From Pseudonocardia ammonioxydans (lineage in GTDB: Bacteria; Actinomycetota; Actinomycetes; Mycobacteriales; Pseudonocardiaceae), in the NCBI RefSeq assembly GCF_900115005.1, contig NZ_FOUY01000002.1, positions 310,001-374,000 on the forward strand: a stretch of 64,000 bases of DNA, given 5' to 3'. Positions 35,857-41,548 of this stretch are shown piece after piece (the first letter of the stretch is position 1; the number at the start of each line of letters is the position of its first letter). Below the pieces are notes generated by a model. That model did not search any database, was not told the origin of the DNA, and saw only the letters and a program-made list of their open reading frames with translations. Position numbers and translations under genes: made by a program.

Positions 35857-36366
35857 TCACGGCGGGGGCCGTTCCGGGACATGCCCGGGCCCGCCCGGTG
35901 GCGCGGGACGGGCCTCGTGCACGACCCGCGGGCCCGCGGGGGTGACCTCCACGTCCGGGCCGCCCGGCGGGAGAAAGCGCAGGCTGCGCACGGCCGGCGC
36001 GGCGGCGTGCACGACGAGCTGCAGCCGTCCACCGAGCCGGCCGGCGTGCCGGTGTGTCTCGATCAGCACCGCCAGCCCGCAGGCGGCGAGGAACTCGACG
36101 AGGTCCAGGTCGACGACGGCGACGTGGCACGGGCTGGCGTCGACGGCGCGGTGCAGGGTCGCGCCGAACTCGGCGCAGGTGCTCAGGTCGATCTCGCCGG
36201 CCACGTCGACGACGGCCACGCCCGACGCGTCCTGCGTCAGGGTGACCGCCATGGATCCGGTCGCGGCACGTTCCGGGAGGGACGCAGGAGACACAGAGGA
36301 CACAGGGGGCACAGGGGACACGGGCGCCGCCGGCTCGCCGGCGACGGGTGTCGGAGAACTGTTCAT
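35857..36366 (-). CDS. STAS-domain protein lacking the phosphorylated serine
   Basis: A 169-aa protein with one STAS domain at about residues 40-125, the fold of anti-sigma-factor antagonists (SpoIIAA). Where SpoIIAA has D-S58-S-G-L, this protein has A94-A95-C96-G97-L98, so the phosphoacceptor serine and its neighbours are missing. The N-terminal 35 residues are Pro/Val/Ser-rich and built on a short GGACACAG-type DNA repeat. It is divergent from the CheB-like gene and probably acts in the same signalling island. ATG 36366 is the last start before the domain; longer starts only add a low-complexity tail. Confidence 0.7.
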   Translation of the reverse strand: MNSSPTPVAGEPAAPVSPVPPVSSVSPASLPERAATGSMAVTLTQDASGVAVVDVAGEIDLSTCAEFGATLHRAVDASPCHVAVVDLDLVEFLAACGLAVLIETHRHAGRLGGRLQLVVHAAAPAVRSLRFLPPGGPDVEVTPAGPRVVHEARPAPPGGPGHVPERPPP

Positions 36367-36924
36367 GGTCAGTCCGGTACGGACGGGCCGCGCCGGGGCG
36401 CAGCTGGGGGAAGGGGCCCGGGTCCGCTGGTTGGAACCTGCCTCGCAGGGGTGCGTGGGGAACGACTCCGCTCGGCCGCACGACCCTGTCGAGAATAGCC
36501 GCCGGGGTTCGGCGTTGTCCACGGAACGTCATCGAGCGGCCACCGGCGCGGGACCGGTGCAGACCCCCGGGGAGCGCGGTGCGCACGTGTCGGGGCGGCA
36601 GCGCCGGGCGGGGCCGCCGCCGGGAACGGCCACCGTGGCGGGGACGCCGCGATCCCCGCACGACGACGCCGGAGCAGCGTGCCGGGCGACGGTGTGCGGG
36701 GGTCCGTCCGGCGCAGCGCCGGGACCGTCGACCACGTCGTCCCGCTGGGGCAGGGACGCTCGTGACCACCCGACCGGTGGTGTAGAAGAATGCGTTTCGC
36801 GGTACCGGGGAGCAGGCGCGGCCGTCACGCTGCGCGGCCGGGACCGGGTACGCCGCGGGCGCGCGGCGATGAGTGTCGTGGCCGGATCGAGCGCGATCCG
36901 GCCGGGAAGTGGTCGAGGTGCGGT
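36367..36924. other. Intergenic gap between STAS and CheB-like genes, nothing identified
   Basis: 558 nt between two divergent genes. No convincing gene, RNA or inverted repeat was found. Promoters for both genes must lie here, but no strong -35/-10 pair or SigB-like element (GTTT ... GGGTA) could be identified by eye. Confidence 0.4.
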
Positions 36925-38010
36925 GTGGTCGAGGACGCGCGACGTGACCCGGACGGGGCGTCCGGGGGACCCGGCGTCGGCGCGCCCACGCTGCGCCGGG
37001 CGGTCGGGATCGGCGCCTCCGCGGGCGGCGTCGAGGCGCTGCTGGAGCTGGTGGGGTCGCTGGACCCCGGGCTGCCCGCCCCGGTGCTGGTGACGGTGCA
37101 CCAGCCTGCGGACGCCTCGACCGTGCTGCCGCAGCTGCTGGCCCGCCGGGGACCGCTGCCCGCCGCCCACGCCCGGGACGGCGAGACGCTACAGCCGGGC
37201 CGCATCTACGTGGCCCCGCCCGATCACCACCTCCTGGTCGACAAGGAGGGCACGGCGGTACTCAGCCGCGGCCCGAAGGAGAACGGCCACCGGCCCGCGG
37301 TCGACCCGCTCCTGCGGTCGCTGGCGCTGCACGTCGGCGCGGGTGCGGTCGGCATCGTGCTCAGCGGGGCCCTCGACGACGGAGCCTCCGGGATGCTCGA
37401 GGTGGTGCGGCACGGAGGAACGGGACTGGTCCAGGACCCCGAGCAGGCGCTCTACCCGAGCATGCCGCGCGCCGCGCTCGACCAGGTGCCGGGCGCCCTG
37501 GTCGAACCCGCCGGCCTGCTCGGCGCCGCCCTGTCGCGGGTGCTCGGCCGCGACCTGCCGGGTACCGCCACCGGGCGCGGCTCGTCGCGCCTGCTGTGGG
37601 AGGTCGCGGTGGCACGAATGGAGGCGCCGGAGATGACCGACATCGACCCGCCCGGCACGGCGGCCGGGCTCGCCTGTCCGGACTGCGCCGGACCGCTGTT
37701 CGAGCTGCACGACGGCGGGGCCGTGCGGTACCGGTGCCGGGTCGGGCACGCCTGGTCCCAGCACGCCCTCGGTTCGGAGCAGGACCACTCGGTGGAGACC
37801 GCGCTCTACATGGCCCTGCGCGCGCTGGAGGACAAGGCCGCCCTGCAGCGGCGGATCGCGGCGACGGCGGCCAAGCAGGGCGCGGACCGGGTGGTGGCCC
37901 GCGCCCGGGATGCCGCAGACGAGGCGGTCCGATCGGCCGGGGTGCTGCGCCGGCTGCTGGCCGGTACCCCCGGCACGTACGACGACCCGCACGGGAAGGG
38001 ACCTGCATGA
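36925..38010 (+). CDS. CheB-like methylesterase with C-terminal zinc ribbon
   Basis: A 361-aa protein with a CheB methylesterase domain at about residues 25-200. The triad is S32 (IGASAGG), H59 (TVHQP) and D152 (SGALDDG). There is no receiver domain in front of it, unlike classical CheB. The C-terminal part has a zinc-ribbon-like pair (CPDCAG ... RYRCRVGHAW) near 250. GTG 36925 is chosen because GAGG lies 6 nt upstream; the longer frame would add a basic low-complexity tail. The stop overlaps the CheR-PAS start (ATGA). Confidence 0.8.
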   Translation: MVEDARRDPDGASGGPGVGAPTLRRAVGIGASAGGVEALLELVGSLDPGLPAPVLVTVHQPADASTVLPQLLARRGPLPAAHARDGETLQPGRIYVAPPDHHLLVDKEGTAVLSRGPKENGHRPAVDPLLRSLALHVGAGAVGIVLSGALDDGASGMLEVVRHGGTGLVQDPEQALYPSMPRAALDQVPGALVEPAGLLGAALSRVLGRDLPGTATGRGSSRLLWEVAVARMEAPEMTDIDPPGTAAGLACPDCAGPLFELHDGGAVRYRCRVGHAWSQHALGSEQDHSVETALYMALRALEDKAALQRRIAATAAKQGADRVVARARDAADEAVRSAGVLRRLLAGTPGTYDDPHGKGPA

Positions 38011-39923
38011 GCGAGCTCGTCGACGAGGGGCCGGATCCGGAGTTCGAGCAGCTCCTGGAGTTCCTGAAGGAGACGCGCGGGTTCGACTTCACCGGCTACA
38101 AGCGGTCGAGCCTGCGCCGGCGGATCGCGCGCCGCATGCAGCAGCTCTCCTTCACCGGGATCGACGAGTACCTCGACCGGCTGCAGGTGGACCAGGAGGA
38201 GTTCACCCGGCTGTTCAACACGGTCCTGATCAACGTCACCGGGTTCTTCCGGGACCACGACTCGTGGGTGCACCTGCAGCACGAAGTGCTGCCGAGGTTG
38301 CTGTCGGCCCTGCGCCCGGGCGAGCCGGTACGGGTGTGGTCGGCCGGGTGCGCCAGCGGGGAGGAGGCCTACGGGCTCGCGATCCTGCTGGCCGAGGCGC
38401 TCGGGCCCGAGCAGTTCCGCGAGCGCGTCAAGATCTACGGGACCGACGTCGACGAGGACGCGCTGGCCACGGCCCGTCAGGCCGCCTACACCGACAAGGA
38501 ACTCGAACCCGTCCCGGCCGAGTGGCGGGAACGCTACTTCGACCGCAACGGCCAGCGGTTCGTGTTCCGCCCGGACCTGCGCCGCTCGGTCATCTTCGGC
38601 CGCAACGACCTCGTGCAGGACGCCCCGATCAGCCGGCTCGACCTGCTCGTCTGCCGCAACACGCTGATGTATCTGAACGCCCAGACCCAGGCCCAGGTGC
38701 TCGCCCGGTTCCACTTCGCGCTCAAGCCCGGCGGCGCCCTGTTCCTGGGCAAGGCCGAGATGCTGCTCAGCCATGCCCGGCTGTTCGTCCCGACGGATCT
38801 CAAGCGGCGGTTCTTCCGCAAGGCCGACACGGTGGGCGCAGCGCCCACGGTGATCGAGCCGGTGTACTCCACCAGTGCCGCGGCCACCCCGCGGATCGAG
38901 GACGAGGCGCTGATGTCCAGCCCGGTGGCAGCGCTCGCCGTCGTGCCGGACGGGGTCCTGGGCCTGGCCAACCGCCGCGCGGAGACCCAGCTCGGGGTGT
39001 CCGCCCGCGACGTCGGCCGGCACGTCGGCGAGCTCGAGCTGTTCGCCGGTCTGCCCGAACTGGCCTCCGCGGTGGACCAGGTCCAGCAGCAGCGCGGCTC
39101 CGTGGCGCTGCACGAGGTCGAGTGGACCCACAACAACGAGACGCTGCACTTCGACATCCAGCTCGTGCCGCTCCCGGCCGGCCCGCGCGGCGTCGCCTCG
39201 GTCGCGGTGTTCTTCACCGACGTCAGCCGGTACCGCCAGCTCGCCTCCGAGCTCGAGCACGCCCACCGCCAGGTGGAGTCCGCCTACGAGCAGCTGCAGT
39301 CGACGGTCGAGGAACTGGAGACCACCAACGAGGAGCTGCAGTCGACGGTCGAGGAGCTCGAGACCACCAACGAGGAGCTGCAGTCGACCAACGAGGAGCT
39401 CGAGACGATGAACGAGGAGCTGCAGTCGACCAACGACGAGCTCCAGTCGATCAACGACGAGCTGCGGGACCGCACCTCCGAGCTCGACGACACCAACGAC
39501 TTCCTCCAGGCCGTGCTGGAGAGCCTGCGCTCCGGCGTGGTGGTGGTCGACTCGGAGCTGATGGTGCAGGCGTGGAACCACCGGGCCGCCGACCTGTGGG
39601 GGCTGCGGTCCGACGAGGCGGTCGGCCGGCACCTGCTCAACCTCGACATCGGGCTGCCGACCGACCGGATCCGGCCGATCGTGCGCAACGCCCTCACCGA
39701 CGGCCGTTCCGGCACCGACGGGGAGGACCGGGCCCTGTCCCGGACCGACGACCAGACCGACTCCCCTGCTCCCGCCGAGCGGGTCGCCCTGACCGTGGAG
39801 GCGATCAACCGCCGCGGCCGCACCGTCCGGATCGCGATCACGGTGGACCCGCTGCGCTACCGCGACCGGGACCGCAGCGGGGCCATCATCATCATGGACC
39901 AGCTCGACGACCTCGCCCCGTGA
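38007..39923 (+). CDS. CheR methyltransferase-PAS protein with coiled coil
   Basis: A 638-aa protein. N-terminal CheR helical domain (residues 10-90: GFDFTGYKRSSLRRRIARRM, DRLQVDQEEFTRLFNTVLINVTGFFRD) and SAM-binding domain (VWSAGCASGEEAYGLAILLAEA near 108; LLVCRNTLMYLN near 215). A PAS-like domain follows (about 290-410). Residues 425-495 form a long heptad coiled coil of repeated ELQST/EELETTNEE, and a second PAS-type domain ends the protein. This is the CheB-CheR-PAS architecture found in split form here. It methylates glutamates in a chemoreceptor-like target, but no receptor gene is in the window. Confidence 0.82.
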   Translation: MSELVDEGPDPEFEQLLEFLKETRGFDFTGYKRSSLRRRIARRMQQLSFTGIDEYLDRLQVDQEEFTRLFNTVLINVTGFFRDHDSWVHLQHEVLPRLLSALRPGEPVRVWSAGCASGEEAYGLAILLAEALGPEQFRERVKIYGTDVDEDALATARQAAYTDKELEPVPAEWRERYFDRNGQRFVFRPDLRRSVIFGRNDLVQDAPISRLDLLVCRNTLMYLNAQTQAQVLARFHFALKPGGALFLGKAEMLLSHARLFVPTDLKRRFFRKADTVGAAPTVIEPVYSTSAAATPRIEDEALMSSPVAALAVVPDGVLGLANRRAETQLGVSARDVGRHVGELELFAGLPELASAVDQVQQQRGSVALHEVEWTHNNETLHFDIQLVPLPAGPRGVASVAVFFTDVSRYRQLASELEHAHRQVESAYEQLQSTVEELETTNEELQSTVEELETTNEELQSTNEELETMNEELQSTNDELQSINDELRDRTSELDDTNDFLQAVLESLRSGVVVVDSELMVQAWNHRAADLWGLRSDEAVGRHLLNLDIGLPTDRIRPIVRNALTDGRSGTDGEDRALSRTDDQTDSPAPAERVALTVEAINRRGRTVRIAITVDPLRYRDRDRSGAIIIMDQLDDLAP

Positions 39924-40015: not shown

Positions 40016-40801
40016 GTGGCCGACATCGATGCACCCGCCGACGTGGCGGCGTTCCTCGAATCGGTGGCCGCCCTGCTCGACGACGAGGTGCCCCACGACG
40101 CGCGTCCTGCGGACCAGGCGGCCGGGGCCGCCGAGGACCGGGCGGTCACGCGGGCCCGGGCCCGGCAGGCGCGCAGCCGCGCCGCCGCCCTGGGGGAGCG
40201 GGTCGAGGGTCTGTGGCACCGCCACGAGGAGCTGCGCGACGCCACCGCCCACGCGGCACCCGCCCGGGCCTCAGCGACCCAGCAGCAGGCCACCGGCATG
40301 CTGATGGTGGTGTTCGGGCTGACCGCGAGCCAGGCCGGGCAGCTGCTGGCGATGCTGGGCTGGCGGCAGGACAGCTCCCCGGACGAGCTTGCCCGGCGGA
40401 TGGTCGCCGCCTGCGAGCGCGGTGCGGACCCCGTGGCGATGCTGCGCGGCGGCGGCGAGGACGGCCGGGGCCGGGCGCCGCTCGTCGTGCGGCGGGCGAT
40501 GGCCTTCATCGAGCAGAATGCCGGCCGTGACATCGGCATCGACGACATCGGTGCCGCGGCCGGGGTGGGGAAGCGCGGTCTCCAGCACGCGTTCCGCCGC
40601 TACTGCGGGGTCAGCCCGATCCGCTACCTGCGCCAGGTCCGGATGGCGAACGCCCACCGCGACCTCGTCTCCGCGGACCCGTCGCGCGGGGACACCGTCG
40701 CCGCGATCGCCGACGCCTGGCAGTTCACCCATCACGGCCGCTTCGCCCTGGACTACCGGACCGCCTACGGCGTCACCCCCGGGCAGACCCTCCGCGGCTG
40801 A
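40016..40801 (+). CDS. Regulator with ANTAR-like segment and AraC DNA-binding domain
   Basis: A 261-aa protein. Residues about 95-140 (QQQATGMLMVVFGLTASQAGQLLAML) resemble the ANTAR helix bundle used for RNA antitermination, but key positions are diverged. Residues about 165-255 form an AraC-type double HTH (DIGIDDIGAAAGVGKRGLQHAFRRYCG; TVAAIADAWQFTHHGRFALDYRTAYG). A combined ANTAR and AraC protein would be unusual; the first part may only be a sensory helix bundle. It follows CheR by 92 nt with its own promoter and is convergent with the GAF-ANTAR gene. Confidence 0.65.
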   Translation: MADIDAPADVAAFLESVAALLDDEVPHDARPADQAAGAAEDRAVTRARARQARSRAAALGERVEGLWHRHEELRDATAHAAPARASATQQQATGMLMVVFGLTASQAGQLLAMLGWRQDSSPDELARRMVAACERGADPVAMLRGGGEDGRGRAPLVVRRAMAFIEQNAGRDIGIDDIGAAAGVGKRGLQHAFRRYCGVSPIRYLRQVRMANAHRDLVSADPSRGDTVAAIADAWQFTHHGRFALDYRTAYGVTPGQTLRG

Positions 40802-40807
40802 CCGCCG

Positions 40808-41548
40808 TCAGCGCTGTGACCGGGACCGGCGCACCGGTCCGGCCGTGACCTCCCGCGCGACGTCGTGCAGCTTCGTGTTGGTGTGCTGGGAGTAGCGCAC
40901 GAGCAGGTTGAACGCCTGGTGGTCGTCGAGACCGAAGCGTTCCATCACGATGCCCTTGGCCTGGCCGATCACGTCCCGGGTGGTGAGCGCCTGTTCCAGG
41001 TCGGCGACGGCGGTCGCGCCGTAGACCAGCACCGCGGCCTGGGTGGCGAACGCCCCGGCGATGGCCTGGGCGGTCTCGTCGAACGCGTCGGGCACGGTGC
41101 TGTAGAGGTTCAGCGCCCCGGATGGGGCCTCGTACGGCGCCATGGCGAACGACAGCAGGCTGCGGACGCCCCGCTCGACGGCCGCCGGGCCGAACCGCGG
41201 CCAGCGTTGCTCGGACGGTAGGGCGAAGTCGGGGACCCGGAGCCGGCTGGAGGTTCCGGGCGTGAGCGTCGTCACACAGGGGCCCTCCGCCCACTCGGCC
41301 TGCAACCGGTCGAGATCGGCGATCAGGGGGTCGCTCGGTGCCCGCGACTGCAGTCCGTCGCCGTCACGCATGGTCAGCCCGGCGTAGGTGGCGCCGGGCA
41401 CACTGGCGACCGCGGCGACGGTGAGCTGTTCCAGGAGCTGCTCGCTGCGGGGACCGGGCCGGCGCGGGCCGCGGTCGGTGATCCGCTCGGCGATCTGTGC
41501 CAGCACGGCGGGCATGGAGTCCGACGAGCCGACCGGCACGGTGTCCAT
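40808..41548 (-). CDS. GAF-ANTAR regulator
   Basis: A 246-aa protein. The N-terminal GAF domain (about 30-160: VASVPGATYAGLTMRDGDGLQS, WPRFGPAAVERGVRSLLSFAM) is followed by an ANTAR RNA-binding domain at about 180-230 (DVIGQAKGIVMERFGLDDHQAFNLLVRYSQ). ANTAR proteins bind paired hairpins in leaders and prevent termination. ATG 41548 has GGAGGAGG 5 nt upstream, far better than the upstream in-frame starts. It is the clearest output regulator of the signalling island. Confidence 0.85.
   Translation of the reverse strand: MDTVPVGSSDSMPAVLAQIAERITDRGPRRPGPRSEQLLEQLTVAAVASVPGATYAGLTMRDGDGLQSRAPSDPLIADLDRLQAEWAEGPCVTTLTPGTSSRLRVPDFALPSEQRWPRFGPAAVERGVRSLLSFAMAPYEAPSGALNLYSTVPDAFDETAQAIAGAFATQAAVLVYGATAVADLEQALTTRDVIGQAKGIVMERFGLDDHQAFNLLVRYSQHTNTKLHDVAREVTAGPVRRSRSQR

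Follow-up and report, generated by a model that had tools for sequence, protein, structure and literature searches.

An alanine-phosphosite STAS protein in a CheB-CheR-PAS/GAF-ANTAR neighbourhood of Pseudonocardia ammonioxydans

The window analysed here (64,000 nucleotides of contig NZ_FOUY01000002.1 of the soil actinomycete Pseudonocardia ammonioxydans) encodes a STAS-domain-only protein that, by its sequence and its predicted fold, is a genuine SpoIIAA/RsfB-fold protein with alanine at the phosphorylation site. Stand-alone STAS proteins of the textbook kind are turned on and off through phosphorylation of a single serine. The window protein probably works without phosphorylation, in a signalling module that is itself unstudied, and it falls among Pseudonocardia STAS proteins that lack a phosphosite and form a loose group, the genes of which, for several relatives, lie beside GAF-ANTAR and CheB-CheR-PAS genes. 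We propose that it is a phosphorylation-independent interaction protein of the CheB-CheR-PAS/GAF-ANTAR module; for this reading as a whole, fold and group membership included, we consider the chances of its being right and wrong to be evenly balanced. The combination found here (a phosphosite-free STAS domain, a cysteine pair and a CheB-CheR/ANTAR setting) was not met in the literature searched; its components are of kinds already known. Coordinates of the features are collected in Table 1.

Table 1. Features of the STAS gene and of its neighbourhood (positions in the window)
Feature	Position	Strand	Basis and remarks
STAS-domain-only protein	35857..36366	-	169 aa from ATG 36366; alternative ATG 36252, 131 aa
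C96, at +1 of the phosphosite and second in helix 95-110	36079..36081	-	codon TGC; AF2 model
A95, counterpart of the phosphorylated Ser (SpoIIAA S58)	36082..36084	-	codon GCC; alignments to solved proteins
C64, first residue of helix 64-77	36175..36177	-	co-occurs with C96-type Cys in relatives
CheB methylesterase	36790..38010	+	Pfam CheB_methylest 165 bits; divergent from the STAS gene; GTG 36925 also a possible start
CheR methyltransferase with long coiled coil and PAS	38007..39923	+	Pfam CheR 179 bits, CheR_N, PAS
AraC-type helix-turn-helix protein	40016..40801	+	Pfam HTH_18 67.3 bits
GAF-ANTAR regulator (RNA-binding antiterminator type)	40808..41548	-	Pfam ANTAR 76.1 bits, GAF_2 29.5 bits

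The STAS core and its alanine phosphosite

The window protein passes the Pfam cut-offs for STAS (PF01740; 33.8 bits, cut-off 22.6; match spanning approximately residues 47-119) and STAS_2 (PF13466; 33.9 bits, cut-off 29.2), and fails that of NCBIfam ant_ant_sig (TIGR00377; 43.9 bits, cut-off 53.45). An AF2 model, built on a seven-row alignment, had a mean pLDDT of 76.3, with residues 41-120 at 87-94 by blocks of ten, residues 121-140 at 79-81, and low confidence for residues 1-30 and the C-terminal tail. RsfB, in its complex with UsfX, was the top fold match of the model (30% identity; Z 15.2; 112 residues at rmsd 2.1). Fold matches by entry included 8ih8 (Z 15.2), 4qtp (Z 14.9) and 6m36 (Z 14.3), and a mycobacterial anti-sigma factor antagonist, RsbV and SpoIIAA were further best matches. 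The C-terminal part, outside the Pfam STAS match, differs from that of relatives.

The open reading frame is intact and has an actinobacterial codon-position GC pattern. Its start codon is unsure: the stretch 36366-36252 is rich in Pro, Ser and Val and is mostly poorly predicted, and a coding-potential heuristic based on codon-position GC favours ATG 36252 over ATG 36366. The residue numbers used here presume ATG 36366; counted from ATG 36252, A94-A95-C96 become residues 56-57-58. No Rfam family reached the gathering threshold within the window.

The motif of the protein is F92-L93-A94-A95-C96-G97 (minus-strand ORF 36366..35857), and its codons, with GCC for A94 at 36085-36087 (minus strand), confirm the motif letters that the earlier note had read at 36053-36105 (minus strand). 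That note had taken A94-A95-C96 as the replacement of D-S-S in SpoIIAA. The letters are right, but the counterpart of the phospho-acceptor is A95 and not C96: when aligned to solved proteins, FLAACGL falls over FMDSSGL (SpoIIAA) and FLGSVGL (RsfB), so that A95 corresponds to the phospho-Ser and C96 to the residue that follows it. Because C96 stands at +1 of the phosphosite, it is not the replacement of the phospho-Ser itself. The relevant serine is given as Ser58 for SpoIIAA in a passage of PMC8256260 and as Ser63 for M. smegmatis RsfB in a passage of PMC7693655. A phosphorylatable residue at the structurally equivalent position, which would have spoken against the loss claimed in the earlier note, was sought, and A95 rather than Ser or Thr was found there. 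The protein thus does not have the S/T that a phosphorylation-switched antagonist of the SpoIIAA/RsbV/RsfB kind needs at the phosphosite, and A95 gives the classic kinase/phosphatase partner switch no residue to act on.

Loss of the serine alone is ordinary in this genus, in which serine-less STAS domains are common, a point that the earlier note had missed. For a census we aligned the 69 STAS domains listed for five Pseudonocardia genomes (G002, G009, G014, G017 and that of the window), with a single weak G002 match set aside. S/T was present at the phosphosite in 41/69 and missing in 28/69, which rules out that Ser loss is remarkable by itself; within the window's own genome, 9 of the 16 STAS domains were without S/T and 7 were with it. 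That the loss of the preceding Asp (A94) is remarkable was ruled out as well, since Asp is also missing in 34 of the 41 S/T-bearing census domains: the residue before the phosphosite was Asp in 7/41, Gly in 20/41 and Ala in 7/41.

Relatives and the CheB-CheR-PAS/ANTAR neighbourhood

The window STAS (L009) grouped with L010, L011, L013 and L079 in a 111-domain tree (support 93/93), and the same grouping was recovered from 101 domains with the motif residues masked (support 94/94). In other tree samplings the group was loosely resolved, and its deeper position disagrees between trees. The four relatives carry the motifs AAH, GAC, SAR and SAH, none with S/T at the phosphosite, and this fits the phosphorylation-independent role that the earlier note had offered as one possibility. 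No orthologue of the window STAS was found in 61 other genomes of the genus (best match 38% identity, E 3.6e-14), in plasmid records or in a first scan of genome contigs; at E up to 1e-11, only two of 396 other genomes of the order gave a match, a weak one in each case.

An ANTAR domain lies within 1.2 kb of each of L010, L011, L013 and L079. The wider association was counted in a sample of 125 distinct STAS domains, drawn from matches to the window protein and from the top STAS matches and therefore selected partly by similarity: ANTAR was found within 1.5 kb of 6/28 domains with Ala or Val at the phosphosite (A/V-site), 1/85 with Ser or Thr (S/T-site) and 2/12 others. Counted from the ANTAR side (90 loci with 98 ANTAR domains, part of a longer list, 30 of the loci having only about 1.5 kb of flank), 18 STAS domains lay within 3 kb, and 5 of the 18 carried S/T vs 41/69 in the census (p about 0.02). 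Given the relatedness among the sampled genes, and the several STAS domains at some loci, this p-value, like that for the cysteines below, is descriptive. The window STAS is approximately 4.6 kb from its ANTAR domain and so is not itself among the ANTAR-near (1.5 kb) cases. Single ORFs joining STAS and ANTAR were found in L172 (3016-4029, minus strand), L342 (6720-7664, minus strand) and L344 (3138-4097, plus strand); all three keep the phosphosite Ser, GAF is also scored in L172, and two of them stand beside CheB-CheR. A literature search returned no work combining an ANTAR domain and a STAS domain, no ANTAR-linked or Cys-pair STAS was described in the titles and abstract openings searched, and the ANTAR RNA survey PMC8164766 contained 0 occurrences of 'sigma', 'GAF' and 'chemotaxis'. 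The N-terminal half of the AraC-type protein (40016-40801) is ANTAR-like by eye, and Pfam does not score it.

Homologues of the window CheR (E up to 1e-100) are present in 22 of 62 genus genomes, the window's own included. We compared the window with 20 of the 21 other loci, leaving out G060, whose E-value and identity were the same as those of G025. With the window counted in, at least one STAS match lay within 2.5 kb of CheB/CheR at 16 of 21 loci (15 without the weak L330 match, E 7e-4); chance alone should give far fewer than one (an estimate from 9-19 STAS per genome in four genomes). Three CheR loci are closest in layout to that of the window, those of P. dioxanivorans (G017), P. sulfidoxydans (G023) and G041. 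Each has, immediately upstream of cheB and in the same orientation, a STAS with Val at the phosphosite and Cys at +1; it ends 111-176 bp from the cheB match, and in two of the three it also carries a C64-type Cys. A STAS protein encoded together with both CheB and CheR, in the manner of CheS, occurs in the window and in L334, L337 and L341. The locus with the closest CheR homologue (G038, 81% identity; L326) had no STAS match in the surrounding 13.5 kb, nor was one found near CheB/CheR in L327, L328, L329 and L339. S/T is kept at the phosphosite in 8 of the 21 STAS domains near CheB/CheR, a share not clearly below that of the census, and this rules out that CheB-CheR-linked STAS proteins all lack S/T. 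In three genomes (L332, L333, L343) a degenerate STAS-like stretch with Pro in the phosphosite column lies between cheB and cheR.

No MCP signalling domain scored over the cut-off in six genomes, the window's own included, and the sub-threshold MCP-signal matches lie solely inside the CheR protein's own coiled coil. That coiled coil, in the CheR-PAS protein of the window (38007-39923), is highly repetitive (EELQST.EELETTNEELQS) and gives the sole, sub-threshold MCP-signal match in the genome. CheB and CheR might act on the CheR-PAS protein itself.

Sigma factor control, the cysteine pair and other readings

The earlier note had raised permanent binding of an anti-sigma factor. As a permanently active anti-anti-sigma factor, the protein would mimic the dephosphorylated form through its Ala, bind an RsbW/UsfX-type anti-sigma factor whenever it is expressed, and so free a stress sigma factor. 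This reading is still a rival because the closest fold is that of RsfB, there in complex with the anti-SigF factor UsfX. According to a section of PMC7693655, RsfB cannot interact with the anti-sigma factor RsbW1 once it is phosphorylated, and the genome holds 33 HATPase_c_2 matches, not all of which are necessarily of the RsbW type. However, none of the 33 falls within the window, where the neighbours are CheB, CheR-PAS and GAF-ANTAR genes, and relatives of the window STAS accompany CheB-CheR and ANTAR genes. Permanent anti-sigma factor binding thus found no direct support, and we consider it unlikely.

A second reading develops the earlier note's idea of redox control of Cys96 into a switch of two thiols: C64 and C96, at the starts of helices 1 and 2, would be joined by a disulfide or take up a ligand or metal, and would thereby gate partner binding in place of serine phosphorylation. 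Such a switch is hypothetical, and we judge it improbable. It draws on the distribution of the +1 Cys, which in the 125-domain sample occurred in 10/28 A/V-site STAS, 0/85 S/T-site STAS and 0/12 others (A/V-site vs S/T-site, Fisher 2e-7, without correction for ancestry), and in the less biased five-genome census in 2/69, namely the window protein and L266, both without S/T. Across 187 distinct STAS domains, 12 had the +1 Cys, and 7 of these 12 also had a Cys at the C64 site vs 1 of the other 175. A search with a Cys-pair profile gave 16 loci, 14 of them from Pseudonocardia, with both Cys in 11/14 and the +1 Cys only in 3/14; because the 14 include three identical pairs and several are the same loci as in the 187-domain count, these Cys pairs are only partly new evidence. 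A precedent is mycobacterial RsfA, a STAS protein and redox-controlled anti-SigF antagonist that is inactivated by a disulfide, as stated in a passage of PMC7693655.

Against a thiol switch, no other member of the nearest clade of the window STAS has both Cys, and the +1 residue there is C, R or H, so that C96 is not conserved among the nearest relatives. The pair occurs mainly in one other clade, in which L222 and L267 are without one or both Cys. Among 33 matches (29 class-level loci plus the locus of the window) both Cys were found in the window protein alone; L287 has a Cys at the C64 site only, and L300 has the +1 Cys plus a Cys at the phosphosite itself. A single clade of exactly the 10 Cys-pair rows, window protein included, was rejected (p-AU 3e-6), as was one of the 10 rows plus L222 (p-AU 0.004); the window protein as sister to an 11-row clade holding the other nine Cys-pair rows was not rejected (p-AU 0.187). 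Independent contrasts for co-variation of the two Cys were below significance (5 pairs on starred branches, 1.4 concordant on average, none discordant). What survives of the redox idea is the co-occurrence of C64 with the +1 Cys; what counts against it is that Cys96 lies off the phosphosite and varies among the nearest relatives. In L284, L290, L297 and L300 (same class), and in L331 near CheR, the serine is replaced in another way, the phosphosite residue itself being Cys (DCSG, DCAG, DCCG).

A broader form of the thiol reading is that a Pseudonocardia STAS lineage swapped the phospho-serine switch for the C64/C96 pair and became the thiol-gated partner of a chemoreceptor-free CheB-CheR-PAS/GAF-ANTAR module. 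We regard this as a long shot; if true, redox state would be coupled to methylation and antitermination and not to a sigma factor. A further reading takes the gene for a paralogue without function or with weak expression, which arose by duplication of a STAS gene and has been drifting since its phosphosite was lost; this agrees with the dearth of orthologues in genus and order, the divergent C-terminal part and the unsure start, but is distinctly improbable given an intact ORF with an actinobacterial codon-position GC pattern, STAS core residues that are kept and confidently folded in the AF2 model, and a place beside CheB-CheR that recurs in other species.

Proposed role and comparison with known systems

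As a phosphorylation-independent interaction protein, the window STAS would be a constitutively competent protein-binding module in a CheB-CheR-PAS/ANTAR sensory locus. Not serine phosphorylation but its expression, its partner or, possibly, the state of C64/C96 would gate it. This proposal draws together A95 at the phosphosite of a confidently predicted STAS core, the S/T-less nearest relatives, the proximity of ANTAR, the STAS genes beside CheB/CheR in 16 of 21 loci, the Val-site STAS upstream of cheB in G017, G023 and G041 and the single STAS-ANTAR ORFs, together with a window free of HATPase_c_2 matches and six genomes free of MCP domains over the cut-off. Against it stand the closest CheR homologue (G038) and four other loci that have no nearby STAS, and the Ser or S/T kept in 8 of 21 CheB/CheR-near STAS domains and in the STAS-ANTAR fusions. 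The window STAS gene is also divergent from cheB and not in its operon, lies about 4.6 kb from ANTAR and has no orthologue in 61 genus genomes, as a decaying or orphan paralogue might; and the ANTAR association carries no ancestry correction and comes from a 125-domain sample picked partly by similarity to the window protein.

Many STAS proteins of one genus lack the serine, and a sub-group pairs its loss with a recurring Cys pair. Should the link between STAS and CheB-CheR be functional, CheB/CheR would gain a testable role outside chemotaxis, and STAS one outside partner switching; otherwise the A95 substitution would be ordinary divergence.

The window STAS resembles the RsfB/SpoIIAA/RsbV antagonists, its top structural matches, in core fold and length, and differs from them in having Ala where they have a phosphorylated Ser and in a window that contains no HATPase_c_2 (kinase/anti-sigma type) match. 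RsfA is, like the window protein, a STAS protein, and thiols are reported to matter for it; the switch in the window STAS is hypothetical. CheS of alpha-proteobacteria is a stand-alone STAS protein whose gene is clustered with cheB and cheR (a passage of PMC12654446), as in the window, and anti-sigma factor antagonist genes are also noted for F7 chemosensory clusters in part of PMC7184735. CheS works with CheA and CheY, whereas no chemoreceptor scored over the cut-off in the six genomes; the window differs further from the CheS cluster in the coiled coil and PAS domains of its CheR and in the GAF-ANTAR gene found with it. The STAS-ANTAR fusions L172, L342 and L344, from the same genus and in two cases beside CheB-CheR, tie STAS to an ANTAR output; they do so within a single ORF that keeps the Ser phosphosite, whereas the window STAS is a separate gene with Ala.
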